A DNA stretch of 64,000 nucleotides from Watersipora subatra (Eukaryota > Bryozoa > Gymnolaemata > Cheilostomatida > Watersiporidae), in assembly GCF_963576615.1 (NCBI RefSeq), contig NC_088715.1:53149959-53213958 (forward strand), in the 5' to 3' direction. The notes under the pieces were generated by a model. It made no database searches. It saw only the letters and a program-made list of their open reading frames with translations, and was not told the origin of the DNA. Of the stretch, positions 2,484 through 54,625 are shown piece after piece (position 1 is the stretch's first letter; every line of letters begins with the position of its first letter). The translations under genes and the position numbers were made by a program.

Positions 2484-2514
<31 letters not shown>
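2441..2514. repeat. (TA)n microsatellite
   Basis: Alternating TA with occasional GTACATG interruptions, ending directly at the degenerate hammerhead motif that follows. Confidence 0.8.
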
Positions 2515-2580
2515 GTACAACTGCACCTGATGAGTGCATCGCACGAAGAAACTTTGTAGCACAATCACTAGAAGTTTACT
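2513..2580 (+). ncRNA. Degenerate hammerhead ribozyme copy
   Basis: This is a decayed relative of the motif at 51956-52019. It keeps the CTGATGA core (2527-2533) and stem II GTGC/GCAC with an ATC loop (2534-2544). The second core strand is GAAG instead of GAAA (2545-2548), so the base corresponding to A15.1 is mutated, and two of the first stem I pairs are broken. The final core dinucleotide TA is at 2557-2558. It also shares the AAGTTTACTTT sequence downstream. Self-cleavage is not expected. Confidence 0.55.
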
Positions 2581-2689
2581 TTCTTCTAAATATTTTTTTA
2601 AAATATTACATACTCCACCAATTATCTTATAGGTTTTAAGTGTGGAGTTCTCTTTTTATATGCTTTTGTCCCTGCTTTTAGTTGCTACA

Positions 2690-2700
2690 TCTATATATAT

Positions 2701-24200: not shown

Positions 24201-27200
24201 AATCACTTTTAGTCATCACTATTAATCGGCTTGATTGACTGAAGTTGAAACTTGCAACTGATTCTGGAATGAATATTTCAGAATCAGTCGCAGAGTTCAT
24301 ATTAGGTAATCCCACGACCAAACAAACGGATGCGAAGTTTGAGAGTTTTTATGATAAATACATGTGCACACAACTTACGAAATTTATTCATTGATGAATA
24401 GACAAACTCTTGTCTCAAAATCTCAAGAAATTTCACCATCATTTTGTAGAGTCGTCAAAGTATAACATTGATACAAAACACATATAAGCCTATTCAAATA
24501 TGTTACCAAGTCTTTGTAAATTGTCGAAATTCTCTTAAAACTTACCCATCTGAACGGATTATCCACAAATAGACAAATTAATTTGGCTAAAATTCTTCAC
24601 AAAATGCTTGACAAGCTTGGTTAAATAAAAGTTAAGACCGGAAATTGAAACGCTGAGCGACAGAGAATAGAACGATTAAGTTGTGCGCATTTCACGGAAA
24701 AATAACGTGCACATTTCACCAATCTTTAACATTGTCGAATTACCGAAGGTTTATGTAATTAACATAGGAGTACTGAAATCGTTTCATTTCTGCCGATTTC
24801 AAAGTAACTGACATTTTAGACACTTAGTACTTTGGTATTCTAACTGATGTCCAACGCAGTGTAAGTAAAAGAAATGACGATGATTTTTTCTAACGATCCT
24901 CAAGAGGCTATTACAATATTTAATTATCAGTTTTGATGACTACAGAACAATGACTCCTTAGTAAAGATTTTTGAAAAATCTATATAAATATCACAACTTC
25001 TTGACATATATTGCTAGCTATGACGTTTTGCAATGTCAACAAAATTGTGCATTGGTTTCATACTACTATATCATATTACTATATTAATAATATTGGTTAT
25101 TCTAATAATACCAGTGCATTATATTTCTAATATTGGCCAATAGTGCATTTTTCCTATTGCAGAGGGACAGATATAAACATATAATATTTTCCTTTTATTA
25201 TTGCTATTTGTTGTACATAATAACACCCAGTACACTACAGCTACCATTGCAGTTATCCTATTGCACTGCAGTGCCACTTGACTGCTAATATTGCATTTCT
25301 CAACCATCAGTACCCTTTCTTTGTTCCAATATCTCTTTGGTCGTGGGCTGTATGACAGTGGAATTTCTAGTATATGCTAATTTAGATGACTCATATTTGT
25401 CTAGTTTAGTTATCCCTGTATCAGCCTTAAGGCTGGCTGTCTGAAGTCATCAAATATTTTGGAATGCCATCTTCTAACTAGCTCTGTTAATATTCTGATT
25501 AGCTTTGATAAATACTTAGTAAGATTGTGAGCTTTGAAAAAGTAATGAATGATTGAAATGCTTAGCCGTTTGGTTCTAGACAGAGCCTCAAGAAAAATAT
25601 CAACAAAAGAGATTTCACTGACACAAATTTACATCATATTTTCCACAACTAGGCAGCATTGCAGCGCTGTCTACAAAATGTGTAAAAAGTAGCTTGTATA
25701 TACTTGATAGAGGCAGAGATGCTGGACAAACAGAGCAGCGTTGTCCCTGCTGAATTAACTAACACATGTGTGTGTTTAAGTAGCAATTCGAATGCCGTAA
25801 ATTGTGCAGTGCAGCTTTAGTGTGACTTATAAGACATGTGCATTTTAGTGTAACATGTCAATACACATATTGACCTGTTACATCAATAATCAGAGGCACA
25901 AAAATGGTTGAAACATGCTGAGTAAGTCTACACAACATGAATTTACAATGAAACATAAAATAAAAAGTCTTTTACATAATTGAGCTACATTAAATTTAAA
26001 TATGGTTAAATTTTTTCTAAAACTGCTAATTTTAGGAAATGAGCTGACAGCCTTTTCATTGCTAAACTCACAGATAACTTGTATAGACTGATTAACTTGA
26101 AAGTCATACCAAGCTTCCTTCCAAGAAAAGGATACTACGCCTGCTTCGTTGAACACTTTCTAAATACAAAATGGGTTGCAAAATTCTCTAGCTAAACTGA
26201 CTAAAAACTTGGAAGCAAAGACTACTGCCCATAGCACTCATTTCTAGAAGTATGCTATATATCAGTGGTTTTTCTGTAATGACAAACAATGTTCTCTTAA
26301 AAAAGCACAAAATTCTAAAATGATTAGCTAATGCCATATTCTTCTGCTGCTATTAGCAAATTACATACTTATAAAAATTGTCAAAACTAAGATTGTCTTG
26401 GAGACAGACTGTTAAATTTATTACCTCAAAATATAAGTTAGCTTAAATTATTTTAAAATGTTCAGATTAAATAAATCAAACACTTTGTTTACGATTGCCT
26501 TTCTATAACATAATGAACAGTTTTTGTTGCTTTTGCAGCATAAATGGCTACCCTGAAAACAGCCTACATACCTATGGATTGCTGACTGGACTCATGAACA
26601 GTGGTCTCTGTTTAGGCAGCACTGTGGGTCCTATTCTCTCTGGAGTCATTGTAGACAATTTTGGTTTTGAGTGGACTCAAACTGTAGTTGCATCTATCAT
26701 TACTTTAATGGTTGGTATAAATTGCTCAAAAAGAGTATTTATTTGTAAGTCAAATAACAGTTTTACGAATTTTTAAGTGACTTGAATGAGATTGGCTATT
26801 TAGCTATTTTATTTTGGAATTCCAATTTTCTAAACATTGAGAACAATATATAAATTGTTTACTGTACTTTAAAAAGCAACAATCATGTGAATTTTTTTTA
26901 TTAGTTAGCAAATTTTTAATTAAACCTTACTTTTTAAAACCTAAACTTTAAGGTTCATAATATTATTAAAAAACTAAATCTTAGAAAACAAAGTAACATC
27001 GTAGTGTTTTTTCAATAGTATAACAACTCCTGTATTATATAAAGCAGTGTGCCTCAACCTTTGCTAATATATAACAAAATATATTTACAGGCAATTCTGT
27101 TTGGAAGTTATCTATTACATCTCAAGTGTACCAACCAGCTCTCAGCACTTTTCAGGGAAGAGAACACAACTGCTGATACCATATATGAAAGCAGCAAACA

Positions 27201-28677: not shown

Positions 28678-29650
28678 ATCAATGTACTCGATGTACTCAA
28701 TGTACTCAATGCACTCAATGCACTCAATGTACTCAATGTACTCAATGTACTCAATGTACTCAATGCACTCAATGCACTCAATGTACTCAATGTACTCAAT
28801 GTACTCAATGTACTCAATGTACTCAATGTACTCAATGTACTCAATGTACTCAATGTACTCAATGCACTCAATGTAATCAATGTACTCAAAGTACTCGATG
28901 CACTCGATGTACTCGATGCACTCGATGTACTCGATGTACTCGATGTACTCGATGTACTCGATGTACTCGATGTACTCGATGTACTCGATGTACTCGATGT
29001 ACTCGATGTACTCGATGTACTCGATGTACTCGATGTACTCGATGCACTCGATGCACTCGATGCACTCGATGCACTCGATGCACTCGATGCACTCGATGCA
29101 CTCGATGCACTCGATGTACTCGATGTACTCGATGTACTCGATGTACTCGATGTACTCGAAGTACTCGATGTACTCGATGTACTCAATGTACTCAATGCAC
29201 TCAATGTAATCAATGTACTCAAAGTACTCGATGTACTCGATGTACTCGATGTACTCAATGTACTCAATGTACTCAATGTACTCAATGTACTCAATGTAAT
29301 CAATGTAATCAATGTACTCAAAGTACTCGATGTACTCGATGTACTCGATGTACTCGATGTACTCGATGTACTCGATGTACTCGATGTACTCGATGTACTC
29401 GATGTACTCGATGTACTCGATGTACTCGATGTACTCGATGTACTCGATGTACTCGATGTACTCGATGCACTCGATGCACTCGATGCACTCGATGCACTCG
29501 ATGCACTCGATGCACTCGATGCACTCGATGTACTCGATGTACTCGATGTACTCGATGTACTCAAAGTACTCAATGTACTCAATGTACTGAATGCACTCCA
29601 TATACTCAATATAGCCATGTACTTAATGCACACAATGTTTGCAATGTAGT
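28678..29650. repeat. 9-bp minisatellite, TACTCAATG/TACTCGATG type (unit 1)
   Basis: Over 100 copies of a nine-base unit in blocks of variants: TACTCAATG, GCACTCAATG-type, TACTCGATG and GCACTCGATG-type, with TAATCAATG and TACTCAAAG marking block borders. Because nine is divisible by three and the unit lacks stops, all reading frames on both strands stay open, giving spurious MYS, CTQ, VLN, STL, VHR and EYI repeat proteins. Confidence 0.95.
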
Positions 29651-30470
29651 CAATGTACGCGATGTACTCAACGTACTTGACGTACGCGACTTACACGATG
29701 TTTTTGACGCACTCGACATATTCCACGCACTCTACGCAGACTACGCACCCTAAGCACTCCACACACTCCACGCACATCACAAACTCCACGCACTCTACGT
29801 ACTCTATGCACTCTACACACTCCATGCACTCTACGCACTCTACGCACTCTACACACTATACGCACCCTAAGCGCTTTAAGCGCTCTACACGCTCTACGCG
29901 CTCAACGCACTCTACGCACCTCACGCACTGTAAGCACTCTACCCACTCTACGCACCCTAAGCACTCTAAGCACTCTACGCACTCTACGCACTCTACGCAC
30001 TCTACGCACTCTAAGCACTCTAAGCACTCTAAACACTCCAAGCACTATAAGCACTCTACGCACTCTACGCACTCCACGCACTCTAAGCACTCTAAGCACT
30101 CTACGCACCCCACGCACTGTAAGCATTCTAAGCATTTAACGCACCCTAAGCACTCTAAGCACTCTACTCACCCTAAGCACTCTAAGCACTCTAAGCACTC
30201 TAAACACTCCAAGCACTCTAAGCACTCTACGCACTCTACGCACTCCACGCACTCCACGCACTCTAAGCACTCTAAGCACTCTACGCACCCCACGCACTGT
30301 AAGCACTCTAAGCACTCTACACACCCTAAGCACTCTAAGCACTCTACGCAATCTACGCACTGTAAGCATTCTAAGCACTCTACGCACTCTAAGGGATCTA
30401 AGCGCTCCACGCCCTTCACGCACTTCAGGCGCTCCATGCGTTCCATGCACTCCACGTACTCTATGTAATC
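29651..30470. repeat. 9-bp minisatellite, CTCTACGCA/CTCTAAGCA type (unit 1)
   Basis: About 90 copies of a related nine-base unit (ACTCTACGC, ACTCTAAGC, ACTCCACGC). It runs straight on from the TACTCGATG array in the same nine-base register, through transitional units with CGTACTTGACGTACGCG, then returns to AATGTACT at its right edge. Confidence 0.9.
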
Positions 30471-32967: not shown

Positions 32968-34320
32968 TCAATGTACTCGATGTACTCAATGTACTCTATG
33001 TACTCAATGTACTCAATGTACTCAATGTACTCAATGTACTCAATGTACTCAATGCACTCAATGTACTCAATGTACTCGATGTACTCGATGTACTCGATGT
33101 ACTCGATGCACTCGATGTACTCGATGTACTCGATGTACTCGATGCACTCGATGCACTCGATGCACTCGATGCACTCGATGTACTCGATGTACTCGATGTA
33201 CTCGATGTACTCGATGTACTCGATGTACTCGATGTACTCGATGTACTCGATGTACTCGATGTACTCGATGTACTCGATGTACTCGATGTACTCGATGTAC
33301 TCGATGTACTCGATGTACTCGATGTACTCGATGTACTCGATGTACTCGATGTACTCGATGTACTCGATGTACTCGATGTACTCGATGTACTCGATGTACT
33401 CGATGTACTCGATGTACTCGATGTACTCGATGTACTCGATGTACTCGATGTACTCGATGTACTCGATGTACTCGATGTACTCGATGTACTCGATGTACTC
33501 GATGTACTCGATGTACTCGATGTACTCGATGTACTCGATGTACTCGATGTACTCGATGTACTCGATGTACTCGATGTACTCGATGTACTCGAAGTACTCG
33601 AAGTACTCGAAGTACTCAATGTACTCAATGTACTGAATGCACTCCATATACTCAATATAGCCATGTACTTAATGCACACAATGTTTGCAATGTAGTCAAT
33701 GTACTCGATGTACTCAATGTACTGAATGCACTCCATATACTCAATATAGCCATGTACTTAATGCACACAATGTTTGCAATGTAGTCAATGTACTCAATGC
33801 ACTCAATGTACTCAATGTACTCAATGTACTTGATGTACTCAATGTACTCAAAGTACTCAATGTACTCAATGTACTCAATGTACTGAATGCACTCCATATA
33901 CTCAATATAGCCATGTACTTAATGCACACAATGTTTGCAATGTACTCAATGTACTCAATGCACTCAATGTACTCAATGTACTCAATGTACTCAATGTACT
34001 CAATGTACTCAAAGTACTCAATGTACTCAATGTACTGAATGCACTCCATATACTCAATATAGCCATGTACTTAATGCACACAATGTTTGCAATGTAGTCA
34101 ATGTACTCGATGTACTCAATGTACTCAATGTACTCAATGTACTCAATGTACTCAATGCACTCAATGTACTCAATGTACTCAATGTACTCAATGTACTCAA
34201 TGTACTCAATGTACTCAATGTACTCAAAGTACTCAATGTACTCAATGTGCTGAATGCACTCCATATACTCAATATAGCCATGTACTTAATGCACACAATG
34301 TTTGCAATGTAGTCAATGTA
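32968..34320. repeat. 9-bp minisatellite, TACTCGATG type (unit 2)
   Basis: The same family as 28678-29650 but differently arranged: a long homogeneous TACTCGATG block (about 33070-33590), then TACTCAATG blocks interrupted by a higher-order unit. Confidence 0.95.
33632..34312. repeat. Higher-order repeat within the minisatellite
   Basis: A segment beginning ACTGAATGCACTCCATATAC, continuing through ATAGCCATGTACTTAATGCAC and ending GTTTGCAATGTA occurs five times in unit 2 (starting near 33632, 33720, 33884, 34034 and 34248) but once in unit 1 (near 29585). It is separated by blocks of TACTCAATG of different length, so this region expanded after the tandem duplication. Confidence 0.9.
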
Positions 34321-34720
34321 CGCGATGTACTCAACGTACTTGACGTGCGCGACTTACACGATGTTTTTGACGCACCCAACATATTCCACGCACTCCACGC
34401 ACTCCACGCACGCTAAGCACTCTACGCACTCCACACACTCCACGCACTTCACACACTCCACGCACTCTACGTACTCTATGCACTCTACACACTCCATGCA
34501 CTCTACGCACTCTACGCGCTCTACACGCTCTACGCGCTCCACGCACTCTACGCACCCCACGCACTGTAAGCACTCTACGCACCCCACGCACTGTAAGCAC
34601 TCTACGCACTCTACGCACCCCACGCACTGTAAGCACTCTAAGCATTTAATGCACCCTAAGCACTCTAAGCACTCTAAGCATTCTATGCACCCTAAACACT
34701 GTACTGTATTCCACTGTACT
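34321..34720. repeat. 9-bp minisatellite, CTCTACGCA type (unit 2)
   Basis: About 40 copies of the second unit class, roughly half the length of the matching array in unit 1. Confidence 0.85.
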
Positions 34721-36416
34721 GTATAGCACAGTATTCCAATCAATGTACTTTTATTCAATGCACCAAACAAACTATTAAAAATTATATATTTCCTAGCATT
34801 TTATTATTGGAGAATCACAAATTGCCGTCACACTAATTGAATAAGAGGTAAGGTTTTTGAAGGTAAACTTTATTAAAGAGATTAGTTCTCTCACCTAGTA
34901 ATATGATTATTGCATAGAACTACTGCTACAAAGTAGTAAAGGATGTGACTTTAGTACTAGTTAGTAGAGATCATTTGAATGAATAACCTTTATTCGTTGT
35001 CAAGTTCGTTAGAAAAAACAGGGTAGACGGATTACTTAGAATCCAAGACAAAATGAGCTATGAAAATGCCACTGACAATGTGTAGAACTTTATTCACACC
35101 AGCTGACCACATAAAAAACACCCAACTATTATTGTTAGATAGTACATTGGTACCCTAATGAACTTACATTTGTACAAAAACAAAAACCATTGCCATATTG
35201 CGACACATGGAAAGTACAACACAACACATGATTCTTTAATTACTTTTTGAAGAAGAACTATGCTCCTGGTTAAATATTGGCTAAAATTGAAATATGTTTT
35301 TAAGCGATTATAAGTTTAGGTAATTAACTTCAGCTGTGTTTTTTGCTCAACAACCATTTGTTATAACATACGCATTTATACAAACTGTTGCAAAAAGAAT
35401 GCTTATGCCTTTTTTCACGGTAATTTTAATAACATTTTCATGTGTAGCTGGTCATAAAGCTTATGCAATGGTCAGTCATAATAGTCTCTATAGATGTATG
35501 ATGAACCTTAAATTACATTTTGACAACCAGCAGTTTATTAAAAGTAAACGGGTTAACTAGAAGTGCATTATTGTCAAAAAATAGCCGTATGAGCTAAATC
35601 AGTAACCACTTATTAATGTACATTTTTTTAAAATTTGCTCAACAAAATGTTGATATCTCTCAGAAGTTTTAATAAATGAACCATCAATCAGTTTCAAAAG
35701 ATTACCAGGGTGTTACTTTTTGTTTAAAATTTAGCTGAAGATTGAACCACCTGCTTATTTACCTTTCAGTCTCACCATGTTGCTTTGAGTAAAATTGTGT
35801 ACCATCCATTCTTTGACATCGATTGTCAATAACTAAAACTTTTGTTACTGTTTAAAAGTTTATTTCTTTGACTAAAATAGAGTAAAAAGCGCTTCAATTT
35901 TACAATGACTTGAAAAAATTGAACTTTTCTTGGCATATAGCATAAAAGATAAAAAAAATTTTTCACTAAAAGAAAGAGATAGATGAAGAAGAAAGAAGAG
36001 AATGATTGAAAGAATTCAAATAGGTAATGTAACTCAGGCATGCATTTCAGTATCACGTTAGCTACACAAATGCTAGTCACTCTCTAACACAGTTAGATCC
36101 ATAGAGTTATCTCCCCCTAGAGTGATAACTGTGCCTTCAACAGCACAGGCGTTTCCGGTGCCAACAAGAAGCGTTTAAGCCACGCCTTTTTTTGTGCTCG
36201 TCAATCGTAGTGATTGACAGAACCATAACATCGGGCATGAGAATGATCATGAATTTCCACAGTTAAGATAGTAATTATTGCTCATATTAAAGAAATGATG
36301 ATTATAGTTTATTACTCTAATATATGCTTATTATTTAAAGCAATTCAATACCTACATGCCTTGCAAAGTCACTGAATAGATAGTGTTAAGTGAGTGAGTT
36401 AATGTAATCAGTTACT

Positions 36417-37500: not shown

Positions 37501-37799
37501 AATTATGTTTAGCGATCCCTGGTAGGTATTGAATTGCTTTAAATAATAAGCATATATTAGAGTAATAAACTATAATCATCATTTCTTTAATATGAGCATT
37601 AATAACTATCTTAACTGTGGAAATTCATGATCATTGTTTAACCATTCTCATGGCTGATGTTATTGAGCTAGTCAATCACAACGATTGACTAGCACAAAAA
37701 GGGCGCGGCCTAAACGCTCCTTGTTGGCACCGGAACCGCTCGTGTAGTTATCACTCTAGGGGGAGAAAACTTTATGGTTAGATCCCTTTGATTAAGAAG

Positions 37800-38290
37800 C
37801 GAAAAGTGAAATTATAACTAACGGATTACAGTGTAAGCCACTATTAAGTATTATTTTATGAATCATAAACAAATATTAATATTTCAACGTTATAGTTATG
37901 TGGATGTAGCATTACTGCACTATTTGTATGTTACAAAATGAACTATATATGATAGCTCATTGTTCATAAAAGTATGTTACAATGCTAGAACAGAACTACC
38001 AGGCTTGTTTGTACCAATATAGCTTTATTCATTATATACTAAAACCAATTAATGATTTTTGAAATTGTTGCGTATAACTTACTGTGACTGACTTACAAAC
38101 CTTTAGTTAACTATTTTGAATTATAAATGTTTACAGAGAGTTTTAAGTTTTAATTTATCACTGTAACATTATTTTGGTTTTCAATGGATTAATTTTTGCT
38201 GCAACATATACATGTTTCAACAATCAGCTTGTGACTTAGTTATTTAAGTGTTTCTCTAAATTTATGTTATTATTTACTAAAAGTTCCACT
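37800..38290. other. Non-coding sequence without recognised feature
   Basis: AT-rich; no exon or repeat structure recognised between the Mutator-like element and the inverted-end element. Confidence 0.35.
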
Positions 38291-38299
38291 GTCATACAG

Positions 38300-39343
38300 C
38301 CCGCGACCAAAGTGATATTGGAAAAAAGAAAGGATACTGATGGTTGAGAAATGCAATATTAGCAGTCAAATGACACTGCAGTGCAATAGGATAACTGCAA
38401 TGGTAGCTTTAATGTACTGGGTGTGGGTGTTATTATATACAACAAATAGCAATAATGAAAGGAAAAGATTATAGGTTTATATCTCTCCCCTGCAATAGGA
38501 GAAATGCAATATTGGTCATTATTAGAAGTAAAATGCACTGATATTATTAGAATAACCAATATTATTAACATAGTAATAATATAAAACCAATGAACAAATT
38601 TGTTTACATTTCAAAACGTCATAGCTAACAATATCACAAAGTTGTGATATTTATACAGATTTTTAGAAATTCTGTGCTACGTAGTCATTGTTCTGTAGTG
38701 ATCCAAACTTATAATTAGTTACTGTAATAATCTCATAAGAACCGTTAGAGAAAATATCCTCGTCATTTTTCTACTTACACTGCGTTGGACATCAGTTAGG
38801 ATACCAAAGTACTCCAAATTGTTTAAAATGTCAGTTACTTTTAAATCGGCAAAAATGAAACAATTTCAGTACTCTTAACTTAATTACAGAAACCTTCGGC
38901 AATTCGACAATGCTATAGACTGGTGAAACGTGCACGTTATTTTTTTTCGTGAAATGCGCACGATTTAATCGTTCTATTCTCTGTCGCTCGGCGTTTTAAT
39001 TTCCGGTCTTAACTTTGATAAAAGTGAGGTTTAGCAAGTTTTAATAACGATTTTCGGCCAAATAAATCTGTCTATTTATGTATATTTCAATCAGATGGGT
39101 TAGTTTTAGGAATTTGCGGTAACCTTTCAAAGGCTTGGTAACATATTTAAATAGGTGTATATGCGTTTTTTATCATTATTATACTTAAACGACTTTACTG
39201 AAAAATACTTAAATTTGTTGATAAGATTTTGTTACAAGGGTTTGGTGACGGCCATTAACGGATACTTTTTCGGGAGTTGTGTGCACATGTGCATTTATCA
39301 AAAATCTCCCAAACCAATCGCTTCGCCTGTGTTTGGTCGTCAG
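38300..39343 (-). mobile_element. 1.04-kb element with inverted CCCGCGACCAAA ends, copy 2
   Basis: Inverted copy of 24311-25347. Ends are CCCGCGACCAAA (38300) and TTTGGTCGTCAG (39332). Landmarks shared with copy 1 include AGAAATGCAATATTAGCAGTC, GTTGGACATCAGTTAG and CGGCAATTCGACAATG-like sequence. The two copies lie in and near copies of the transporter gene. Confidence 0.65.
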
Positions 39344-51860: not shown

Positions 51861-51955
51861 CAATATCAACAGTTATAAAAACCACCCCATAAAAAAGTTA
51901 TAATTCCATATATATATTATATTCCATTCCATTCCAATTCCATTATATATATATA

Positions 51956-52019
51956 TTTTAGTACAATTGCGTCTGAGGAGTGCTTCGCACGAAACAGATT
52001 TGTAACGCAAATACTAAAA
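51956..52019 (+). ncRNA. Type I hammerhead ribozyme, intact core
   Basis: All parts of a self-cleaving hammerhead are present in order: stem I 5' strand TTTTAGTA (51956-51963), CAA internal loop, TTGCGT (51967-51972); core CTGAGGA (51973-51979, fits CUGANGA); stem II GTGC-TTC-GCAC (51980-51990); core GAAA (51991-51994); a two-pair stem III CA-GATT-TG (51995-52002); core TA (52003-52004, cleavage expected after 52004); stem I 3' strand ACGCAA (52005-52010), one A, then TACTAAAA (52012-52019). Both stem I segments pair perfectly. A minimal stem III with open stem I is the form known in metazoan retroelements (Penelope-like elements, retrozymes). No reverse transcriptase is nearby. Confidence 0.8.
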
Positions 52020-52045
52020 GTTTACTTTTTTCGCAATAATTTTTT

Positions 52046-52049
<4 letters not shown>

Positions 52050-52081
<32 letters not shown>
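52050..52081. repeat. (TA)n microsatellite
   Basis: Alternating TA directly downstream of the hammerhead, as in the degenerate copy at 2513, where the run is upstream. Confidence 0.85.
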
Positions 52082-52429: not shown

Positions 52430-54625
52430 TGATTACCAGTTAGCAGATTGCTACAACTTACACATAAAATAGAATGTTACCATTGTAACTTATGTAATAG
52501 TCACAATGGAAACATTACATAGCATGGCACAGTTTACCTACCCTTTAGTAAAATCTATATCATTTAGGAGTTTGCTATAACTTGTTTGTTTGAGAGGCTG
52601 CTCTGATTTACATATAATAAAGTATGTTGCTATAACTTATAGATCACTTGAGAAAATTCTATAATTTGAATTTCACATAGTTGGTAGCAATTATCTATAT
52701 ATCAGTGAGAAGGCTGCTATAAGTTATATATTATTTAGGAGGCTGCTGCTATTTATAAATTGTTTTGGAGGTTGCTATAACTTACATATCATTGCAGAGG
52801 CTGCTATGAGTTACATATGGTTTAGGATGTAGCTATCACTTATAGATCACATAAGACCTTGCTATAATTTGAATTTTCCATAGTTGATAGCTATTATTTA
52901 TATATCAGTTAGGAGGCTGCTATCGATTATATATTAATTAGGAGGCTGCTGATATTTATATATCATTTAGGAGGTTGCTATAACTTACATATCACTGCAG
53001 AGGCGGCTATGAGTTACATATAATTTAGGATGTTGCTATCACTTATAGATCACGTATGACCTTGCTATAATTTGAATTTTCCATAGTTGATAGCTATTAT
53101 TTATATATCAGTTAGGAGGCTGCTATGGATTATATATTAATTAGGAGGCTGCTGATATTTATATATCATTTAGGAGGTTGCTATAACTTACATATCATTG
53201 CAGAGGCTGCTATGAGTTAGATATAATTTAGGATGATGCTGTCACTCATAGATCAACTAAGACCTTGCTATAACTTGAATTTTCCATAGTGCATAGCTAT
53301 TATTTATATATCAGTTAGGAGGCTGCTATGGATTATATATTAATTAGGAGGCTGCTGATATTTATATATCATTTAGGAGTTTGCTATAACTTGTTTGTTT
53401 GAGAGGCTGCTCTGATTTACATATAATAAAGTATGTTGCTATAACTTATAGATCACTTGAGAAAATTCTATAATTTGAATTTCACATAGTTGGTAGCGAT
53501 TATCTATATATCAGTTAGGAGGCTGCTATGAATTATATATTAATTAGGAGGCTGCTGCTATTTATATATTAATTAGGAGGTTGCTATAACTTACATATCA
53601 TTGCAGAGGCTGCTATGAGTTACATATAATTTAGGATGTTGCAATCACTTATAGATCACCTAAGACCTTGCTATAACTTGAATTTTCCATAGTTGATAGT
53701 TATTATCTATATATCAGTTAGAAGGCTGCTATGAATTATATATTAATTAGCAGGCTGCTGATATTTATATATCATTTAGGAGGTTGCTATAATTTACATA
53801 TCATTGCAGAGGCTGCTATAAGTTACATATAATTTAGGATGTTGCTATCACTTATAGATCACCTAAGACCTTGCTATAATTTGAATTTCCCATAGTTGAT
53901 AGCTAGTATTTATATATCATTTAGTAGGCTGCAATGAATTATATATAAATTAGGAGGCTGCTGCTATTTTTAAATCATTTAGGAGGTTGCTATAACTTAC
54001 ATATCATTGCAGAGGTTGCTATTAGTTACATAGAATTTAGGATGCTGCTATGACTTATAGATCACATAATAGTTTACTATAATTTGAATTTCATATAGTT
54101 GGTAGCTACTATTTATATATCAGTTAGGAGGCTGCAATGAATTATATATTAATTAGGAGGCTGCTGCTATTTATATATCATTTAAGAGGTTTCTATAACT
54201 TATATATCATTGCAGAGGCTGCTATGGGTTACATATAATTTAGGATGTAGCTATCACTTATAGATCACCTAAGACCTTGCTATAATTTGTATTTCCCATA
54301 GTTGATAGCTATTATTTATATATCATTTAGTAGGCTGCAATGAATTATATATAAATTAGGAGGCTGCTGCTATTTTTACATCATTTAGGAGGTTGCTATA
54401 ACTTACATATCATTGCAGAGGTTGCTATGAGTTACATAGAATTTAGGATGATGCTATGACTTATAGATCACGTAAGAGTTTACTGTAATTTGAATTTCAT
54501 ATAGTTGGTAGCTACTATTTATACATCAGTTAGGAGGCTGCAATGAATTATATATTAATTAGGAGGCTGCTGCTATTTATATATCATTTAAGAGGTTTCT
54601 ATAACTTACATATCATTGCTAACTT
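52430..54625. repeat. 203-bp satellite array with 40-bp subunits
   Basis: About ten copies of a 203-base unit; the landmark AGGAGGCTGC recurs at 52920, 53123, 53326, 53526, 53729, 53932, 54135, 54338 and 54541 (one interval is 200). Each unit is made of about five 40-base subunits sharing TTAGGAGGCTGCTAT and TTATATATCA. The last four units alternate two types, giving a 406-base dimer. It is AT-rich with no sustained frame. Confidence 0.9.

Follow-up and report, generated by a model that had tools for sequence, protein, structure and literature searches.

A probable hammerhead-only insertion of a Penelope-like retrotransposon family, with copy ends at the ribozyme's first base and predicted cut site

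We propose that a 98-bp insertion in the genome of Watersipora subatra is a 5′-truncated, hammerhead-only copy of a retrotransposon family of the Penelope-like element (PLE) type, formed by the mechanism set out below, and we give this reading a probability of about 0.78. The insertion lies on contig C8 of the 784-Mb genome searched, within the 64,000-nucleotide stretch of DNA analysed here (the window). Ribozyme and carrier are both of known kind, and the wider interest lies instead in the pattern of copy ends. With hundreds of close copies that end at the presumed RNA start and at the cut site, the question of an in vivo role becomes answerable from genome data and one RNA-end experiment. 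A 2020 review, in the part of it available to us, states that the in vivo activity and role of PLE hammerheads 'are still a mystery' (PMC7761336).

The hammerhead in the window

The core, stems and cleavage site of a hammerhead ribozyme are all present between 51956 and 52019, and direct reading confirms that this is a real hammerhead motif (Table 1). The type I core CUGANGA...GAAA...UH occurs here with three stems and an open stem I, and the assignment to type I, with open stem I and minimal stem III, is supported. The original prediction had named CTGAGGA, a GTGC/GCAC stem II, GAAA and TA in the correct order, together with a two-part stem I and this same architecture, all of which the sequence bears out: the inner 6 and outer 8 bp of stem I are fully paired, giving the 14 bp claimed, and the predicted cut after 52004 agrees with the motif layout, in which TA occupies 52003-52004. 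Within the stem III stretch (CAGATTTG, 51995-52002), C-G and A-T pairs enclose a 4-nt loop and adjoin the A51994-U52003 pair. If transcribed, the window copy would be expected to cleave itself.

Table 1. Positions of the insertion, its parts and a second copy in the window
Feature	Position	Strand	Basis or remark
Solo 98-bp insertion: hammerhead and 3′ tail, (TA)n on both sides	51955..52052	+	whole-genome search
Stem I, 5′ strand: outer 51956-51963, internal loop CAA 51964-51966, inner 51967-51972	51956..51972	+	
CUGAGGA core	51973..51979	+	sequence reading
Stem II: GUGC 51980-51983 / GCAC 51987-51990, loop UUC	51980..51990	+	
GAAA core segment	51991..51994	+	sequence reading
Minimal stem III: CA/UG, loop GAUU	51995..52002	+	sequence CAGATTTG
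Predicted cleavage site UA^A, between 52004 and 52005	52003..52005	+	motif position
Stem I, 3′ strand: inner 52005-52010, outer 52012-52019	52005..52019	+	sequence reading
Tail to internal 3′ end site 1 (...TTTCAAATAT, then TA run)	52020..52052	+	
Decayed second copy, other subfamily, longer form	2511..2690	+	ends near internal site 2 (...GCTACAT, then TA run)

The limits of the insertion come from comparison with its relatives. In a whole-genome search, the best matches to other copies span 51955 to 52052 or continue into the next TA run, and a few begin some bases before 51955, inside the TA run. The window copy runs from the hammerhead's first base to internal site 1, and is set inside a (TA)n tract. 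No element domain was found by Pfam in the three plus-strand frames across about 5 kb on each side (one match had E = 0.9), as expected of a solo copy.

Besides this copy, the window contains one further hammerhead-like place, 49 kb away. It lies at 2511-2690, has a core disturbed after GAA and shares 80.7% identity with the intact copy over 109 alignment columns. The tail word alone occurs 75 times in the window and 67.5 times in shuffles at three mismatches, and is not commoner than in shuffled sequence.

The check set by the original prediction, a scan with the Rfam type I model, did not come out in its favour. RF00163 (Hammerhead_1) gave the window copy 16.5 bits against a gathering cut-off of 34 (E = 0.09), and because the score falls under the cut-off the copy is not filed as a member of that family. 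A gathering-score search of the window found nothing; at a permissive E-value the sole match was the sub-threshold type I hit at this insertion, with none at the 2511-2690 copy. Genome-wide, none of the 73 candidates scored, from 61,516, rose over the RF00163 cut-off. The highest of these scores, 24.8 bits at G000:C1:30284399-30284440 and likewise under the cut-off, possibly belongs to another hammerhead family. For the window copy, the other evidence for a hammerhead outweighs the low Rfam score.

Energy models give the hammerhead core no credit. For the window copy, a fold other than the hammerhead has the minimum energy: the core's UCUG is paired to CAGA in stem III, so that part of the core is closed, at -16.8 kcal/mol against -13.4 kcal/mol for the hammerhead when its non-canonical core is left uncredited. 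In a sister subfamily carrying CAAAUUUG the competing helix is impossible, and the minimum-energy fold is the hammerhead. The hammerhead stretch of the second family has a folding stability that is not unusual (z = -0.97).

Copies in the genome and covariation

Close relatives of the window copy are abundant. A 53-nt core has 287 genome copies within three mismatches, against 0 for the reversed control, and 65 of the 100 matches listed (of 287) are exact. The architecture CTGANGA-GTGC...GCAC-GAAA-CANNNNTG-TH occurs 725 times (control 0), and tails within three mismatches number 597. Searches of viral contigs gave no match. The single prokaryote match, in Coprococcus, has no stem I on reading and was treated as chance.

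Pairing was assessed in an alignment of 24 distinct hammerheads, found by a core-based pattern in the fetched loci. The core columns are invariant apart from the first two positions and the free N7; GAAA is invariant in 24/24, having been required by the collecting search. All stem II pair cells are paired, as are 84% of those in stem I. Overall, 92.6% of 312 pair cells hold standard pairs, compared with 84.2% after shuffling. Cells in which both bases have changed number 22 against a shuffled mean of 7.0 (reached in 0/500 shuffles) and at most 5 in slid controls, and the covariation score of 0.222, against 0.102 shuffled, is also reached in 0/500. All 22 double changes sit in stem I and support it by covariation; 5 of its 6 pairs carry a double change, a pair count that 140/500 shuffles reach. 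Stems II and III hardly vary, too little for covariation. Inner stem I differs on both sides between families, the second family having a different stem I that still pairs. The double changes mostly separate two clades and therefore represent few independent events, and related sequences can exceed shuffles without any structure.

The stem III stretch has a further property. In family A its 8 nt are self-complementary, fully in CAAAUUUG and with two wobbles in CAGAUUUG. Positions 51995-52002 are self-complementary over 8 bp with two G-U pairs, so a longer stem between two ribozymes is possible. Two CAAAUUUG copies are predicted to pair through this stretch, while the pairing predicted for two window copies is a different one. 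It has been proposed that PLE hammerheads may act as dimers (PMC7761336, in the part available), and the predicted pairing of self-complementary CAAAUUUG stem III stretches fits that idea.

The parent element and its protein

Elsewhere in the genome, the same hammerhead stands at both ends of elements of about 2.4 kb with an open frame of about 700 aa, arranged as hammerhead, tail, 5′ region, ORF, hammerhead and tail; solo copies hold the hammerhead and tail only. In locus L010, an ORF of 702 aa lies between two identical hammerheads spaced 2461 bp apart, the first of which ends about 220 nt before the ORF. The left unit there is preceded by a 5′-truncated copy of the same element, producing a perfect direct repeat of 1107 bp. 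Among the 63 protein matches scored, from 5740 candidates, at least eight span residues 1-702 without a stop, and at least three belong to a second family with 58% protein identity and open frames. In all three fetched loci of the second family the hammerheads lie 2400 bp apart. The same scan found no hammerhead at L053, the locus of a decayed copy at 68%.

Several blocks of the protein (FDV...FYPSI, MGS.DGAE, YRDDG and a C-terminal Y...YIG block) resemble what we take to be the reverse transcriptase and GIY-YIG endonuclease of PLEs. The Pfam reverse transcriptase family RVT_1 matches a fragment covering FDV and YRDDG with E = 0.018 (15.2 bits against a cut-off of 29.6), and has no match with the whole ORF protein. 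GIY-YIG has no Pfam match in the ORF, as a whole protein or in fragments, while Y, YIG, R, N, H and E residues of the C-terminal block are common to the two families compared. Whole-protein searches of Pfam, PHROGs, NCBIfam and PDB returned no clear relative.

The repeats speak for the same kind of carrier. Direct and inverted terminal repeats (pseudo-LTRs) are present, the hammerhead lies within them, and the layout as a whole (terminal repeats in both orientations, tail, AT-rich targets and solo repeats) agrees with published PLEs as far as the available portions of their descriptions go (PMC3846280, PMC11167929). The ORF-bearing elements look like PLEs. PLEs and retrozymes had both been named in advance as carriers of such hammerheads: whole copies in the genome favour the first, and the second finds no short tandem arrays among the 100 of 725 matches listed.

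Where copies begin and end

Among 67 distinct hammerhead contexts in the fetched loci, a set biased toward close copies because loci were chosen for resemblance to the finding or to the ORF, 52 have the element's 3′ region upstream. Thirteen of the other 15 begin at the hammerhead's first bases, (A)TTTTAGT, and 9 of those 13 are arms of head-to-head pairs. TATA stands directly before TTTTAGT in five exact cases, the window copy among them. Full elements have TTC (family A) or GCC (family 2) before the start, which gives a YYA that we take to be initiator-like. Among solo starts in TA context, the base before the first A is G in three and A or C in one. An extra G of this kind was noted before the first A of some solo copies (L003, L005, L007, L019 and L024); as a trace of a copied cap it is a hint only, since the counts are too few.

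The 3′ ends concentrate at two places. At site 1, where the window copy ends, 29 of 55 distinct tail contexts stop and give way to a TA run; another 24 read on into the body of the element, and 2 do otherwise. At site 2, 23 of the 31 contexts that reach it stop there. Both are UA-containing places followed by (TA)n, and ends of this kind would be expected if a TA-rich primer initiated synthesis internally.

Neighbouring copies are arranged in a characteristic way. Among the 100 of 725 matches listed (contig C1, and C2 up to 54.2 Mb), neighbouring pairs within 300 bp are head-to-head without exception (16 of 16), and at distances up to 5 kb 28 of 32 pairs diverge (P < 1e-9 against equal chances). 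Three head-to-head hammerhead pairs (G000:C2:50886611, 52480956 and 53157637) share a spacing of 1139 bp and are probably copies of one duplicated insertion.

Copies that begin at the predicted cut site

A second 5′ boundary lies inside the hammerhead. We searched for footprints consisting of a TA run followed by the tail within 30 nt, a design that catches copies truncated anywhere inside the hammerhead. In a narrower search (12 rows merged to 7 loci), 6 of the 7 loci hold a copy whose first base is the one following the predicted cut (ACGCAAATACT or variants); without merging of duplicates, 7 of 9 places fit. The probability of 6/7 is 5e-6 with three of 31 positions allowed, which covers the TA ambiguity, or 1e-4 with five allowed, on the unproven assumptions that starts are uniform and independent. 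In a wider search, 52 rows became 17 loci after merging shifted matches, head-to-head partners and duplicated places (two on C3, and two inverted places 1.9 kb apart on C8). Eleven of the 17 fit the cleavage site, nine read from the letters and two inferred from match length; two misfit, and the remaining four could be assigned neither way.

In the second family, two of five loci begin exactly at the cut (P = 0.01 on the same assumptions), and one of these starts is apparently followed by a template jump. Two loci that fit the cleavage site have a head-to-head partner with a different start (+2 in one, about +6 in the other). For the reverse case, a copy whose 3′ end falls at the cut, the fetched loci offered three candidate rows, and none of them convinced. 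Locus L054 (2108-2150 and about 4035) has a start at the cleavage site with a further short piece ahead of it on one side; this piece, too, begins ACGCAAATAC, which resembles a jump of cDNA between templates. The two places of L054 look like mutual inverted copies.

The concentration of starts at one base suggests that the ribozyme may cleave in vivo and that cut RNA may serve as template some of the time. Our searches turned up no description of insertions ending at the cut site of a PLE hammerhead in the open-licence literature, a body that leaves Cervera and de la Pena 2014 outside it. That hammerhead cleavage preprocesses templates was suggested earlier (PMC6431247, part of text).

A proposed mechanism

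In the mechanism that we favour, transcription would start at the hammerhead's first base, the initiator-like YYA, and so place the ribozyme at the extreme 5′ end of the RNA. The element protein would open AT-rich DNA, and the TA-rich target end would prime reverse transcription inside the RNA, at either of two sites that contain UA and lie shortly after the 5′ hammerhead. cDNA running to the RNA's 5′ end would then yield a 98-bp solo copy from site 1 or a copy of about 187 bp from site 2, while long copies would stem from initiation at the downstream hammerhead copy. If both target strands can be primed, head-to-head pairs would result. Part of the RNA may already have cleaved itself at the hammerhead, and those templates would give the insertions that start at the cleavage site.

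A bolder extension, for and against which we see even odds, is that the genome holds a base-level record of the ribozyme's work in vivo. Solo copies would start either at the RNA's first base or at the exact cut, so that self-cleaved RNAs with a 5′ hydroxyl would have been reverse-transcribed and integrated, and the self-complementary stem III loop hints at an active dimer formed by pairing of the 5′ and 3′ hammerheads, in one RNA or between two.

Alternative explanations

Two readings of the motif and its carrier can largely be set aside. A chance motif in AT-rich DNA could draw on the low Rfam score and on a loose core pattern expected 0.39 times per window, but the full motif is expected at only 0.005 per 64 kb (200 second-order Markov sequences of the same length, both strands; stem I >=5, stem II >=4, stem III >=2), the paired double changes in stem I stand against it, and 725 copies with a control of 0 speak decisively, leaving a negligible probability. 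A non-autonomous retrozyme, made of short (170-400 bp) tandem hammerhead repeats spread via circular RNA, has precedent in the type I retrozymes reported from cnidarians, molluscs and amphibians (PMC7229834, in the part available). It is nevertheless very improbable here: the only two hammerhead-like places in the window are far apart, the nearby 203-bp satellite (52556-54619) contains none, and units of about 2.4 kb, each with an ORF, have hammerheads at their ends. Of the 32 pairs within 5 kb among the 100 of 725 matches listed, only 3 share an orientation, none of them within 300 bp. Tandem units of 150-450 bp, each with a hammerhead and without an ORF, were not found; listed neighbours are inverted or more than 1 kb apart, save one plus-minus pair of two different families at 384 bp.

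The alternatives to individual steps of the mechanism carry more weight, and we regard both as unlikely. Cleavage-site starts might arise from microhomology or from stalling of the reverse transcriptase, with the hammerhead passive and possibly inactive. TA precedes the cleavage site in family A and matches the TA target, and microhomology at GTA^ACGC could explain three of the nine letter-read loci, the same three of the six fitting loci of the narrower search; the window copy's minimum-energy fold is not catalytic, and hammerhead mutants of the Anolis PLE left insertion in vitro unaffected (PMC11167929, available part). Yet for the other TA searched, AATA^CT, the tally is a single near case among locus starts (C6:37435488) plus a filler piece (C7:15428167), against the 11/17 at the cleavage site, a non-matching base precedes some of the cleavage-site starts (C6:5306779, C8:23842060), the second family has no TA there and still shows its 2/5, and stem I is mostly paired across families. 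Head-to-head pairs might similarly come from self-priming on an antisense template, as proposed for the Penelope elements of bdelloid rotifers, and the junctions are palindromic, as in A. vaga (PMC3846280, available part). In L016, L017, L062 and L063, however, one arm stops at a different internal site from the other. This sits uneasily with one arm having been copied from its partner and suggests two separate initiations. Both strands are also cut and extended by the protein of the Anolis PLE (PMC11167929, in the part available). Internal priming of both target strands remains our preferred account of the pairs, and self-cleaved templates that of the cut-site starts.

Comparison with known systems

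The closest published systems, compared here through those portions of the papers available to us, each share part of this picture. PLE hammerheads (Cervera and de la Pena 2014, as cited in later papers) are, according to the review PMC7761336, also minimal type I motifs with little or no stem III, lie in terminal repeats and have many dispersed copies; here, in addition, most of the solo copies read have their 5′ limit at the hammerhead's first base, with the cleavage site as a second such limit. The Poseidon PLE of Anolis carolinensis (PAc), the first PLE shown to be active in vitro, where it inserted without cleavage, has a hammerhead near the ORF start, initiates reverse transcription internally, prefers AT-rich DNA, extends both strands and leaves insertion ends at initiation sites (PMC11167929). 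Its hammerhead reaches into the ORF, whereas that of the present element stops short of it. The available text reports no RNA-seq reads at the PAc cut site, the place where insertions start here.

The Penelope element of the bdelloid Adineta vaga has direct and inverted pseudo-LTRs, head-to-head palindromes, a 3′ tail and solo pseudo-LTRs, and its repeat carries an initiator-like TCACT, a feature shared with the initiator-like YYA of the present family (PMC3846280). The available part of its description mentions no hammerhead; in the present family, copies sit in TA runs, where target duplications cannot be assessed. A giant PLE-related element likewise carries a hammerhead, and template preparation by cleavage has already been proposed in print for it (PMC6431247). 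The present family differs in its junction evidence at the cut site, in its unit of about 2.4 kb and in the lack, among the copies read, of telomeric repeats next to the tail. Metazoan non-LTR retrozymes have in common a type I hammerhead in a repeat family (PMC7229834), whereas here no short tandem units were seen and an ORF lies between the hammerheads.

Other repeats in the window

Several unrelated repeats share the window. About 500 bp downstream of the insertion, a satellite at 52556-54619 comprises about ten 203-bp units with a 29-bp sub-repeat, and gives no match to the core pattern or the full-motif scan. Two long 9-bp minisatellite arrays (ATGTACTCG, ACGCACTCT, TCAATGTAC) occupy 28682-30391 and 32968-34694; their left flanks encode the same peptide, which suggests a duplicated block. 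A repeat of roughly 1 kb is present as two inverted copies (24423-25387 and 38260-39221), with pieces 79-90% alike. Finally, 114-bp inverted repeats at 36242-36355 and 37522-37635 are 98% complementary and 1.2 kb apart, an arrangement that looks like a DNA transposon with terminal inverted repeats.
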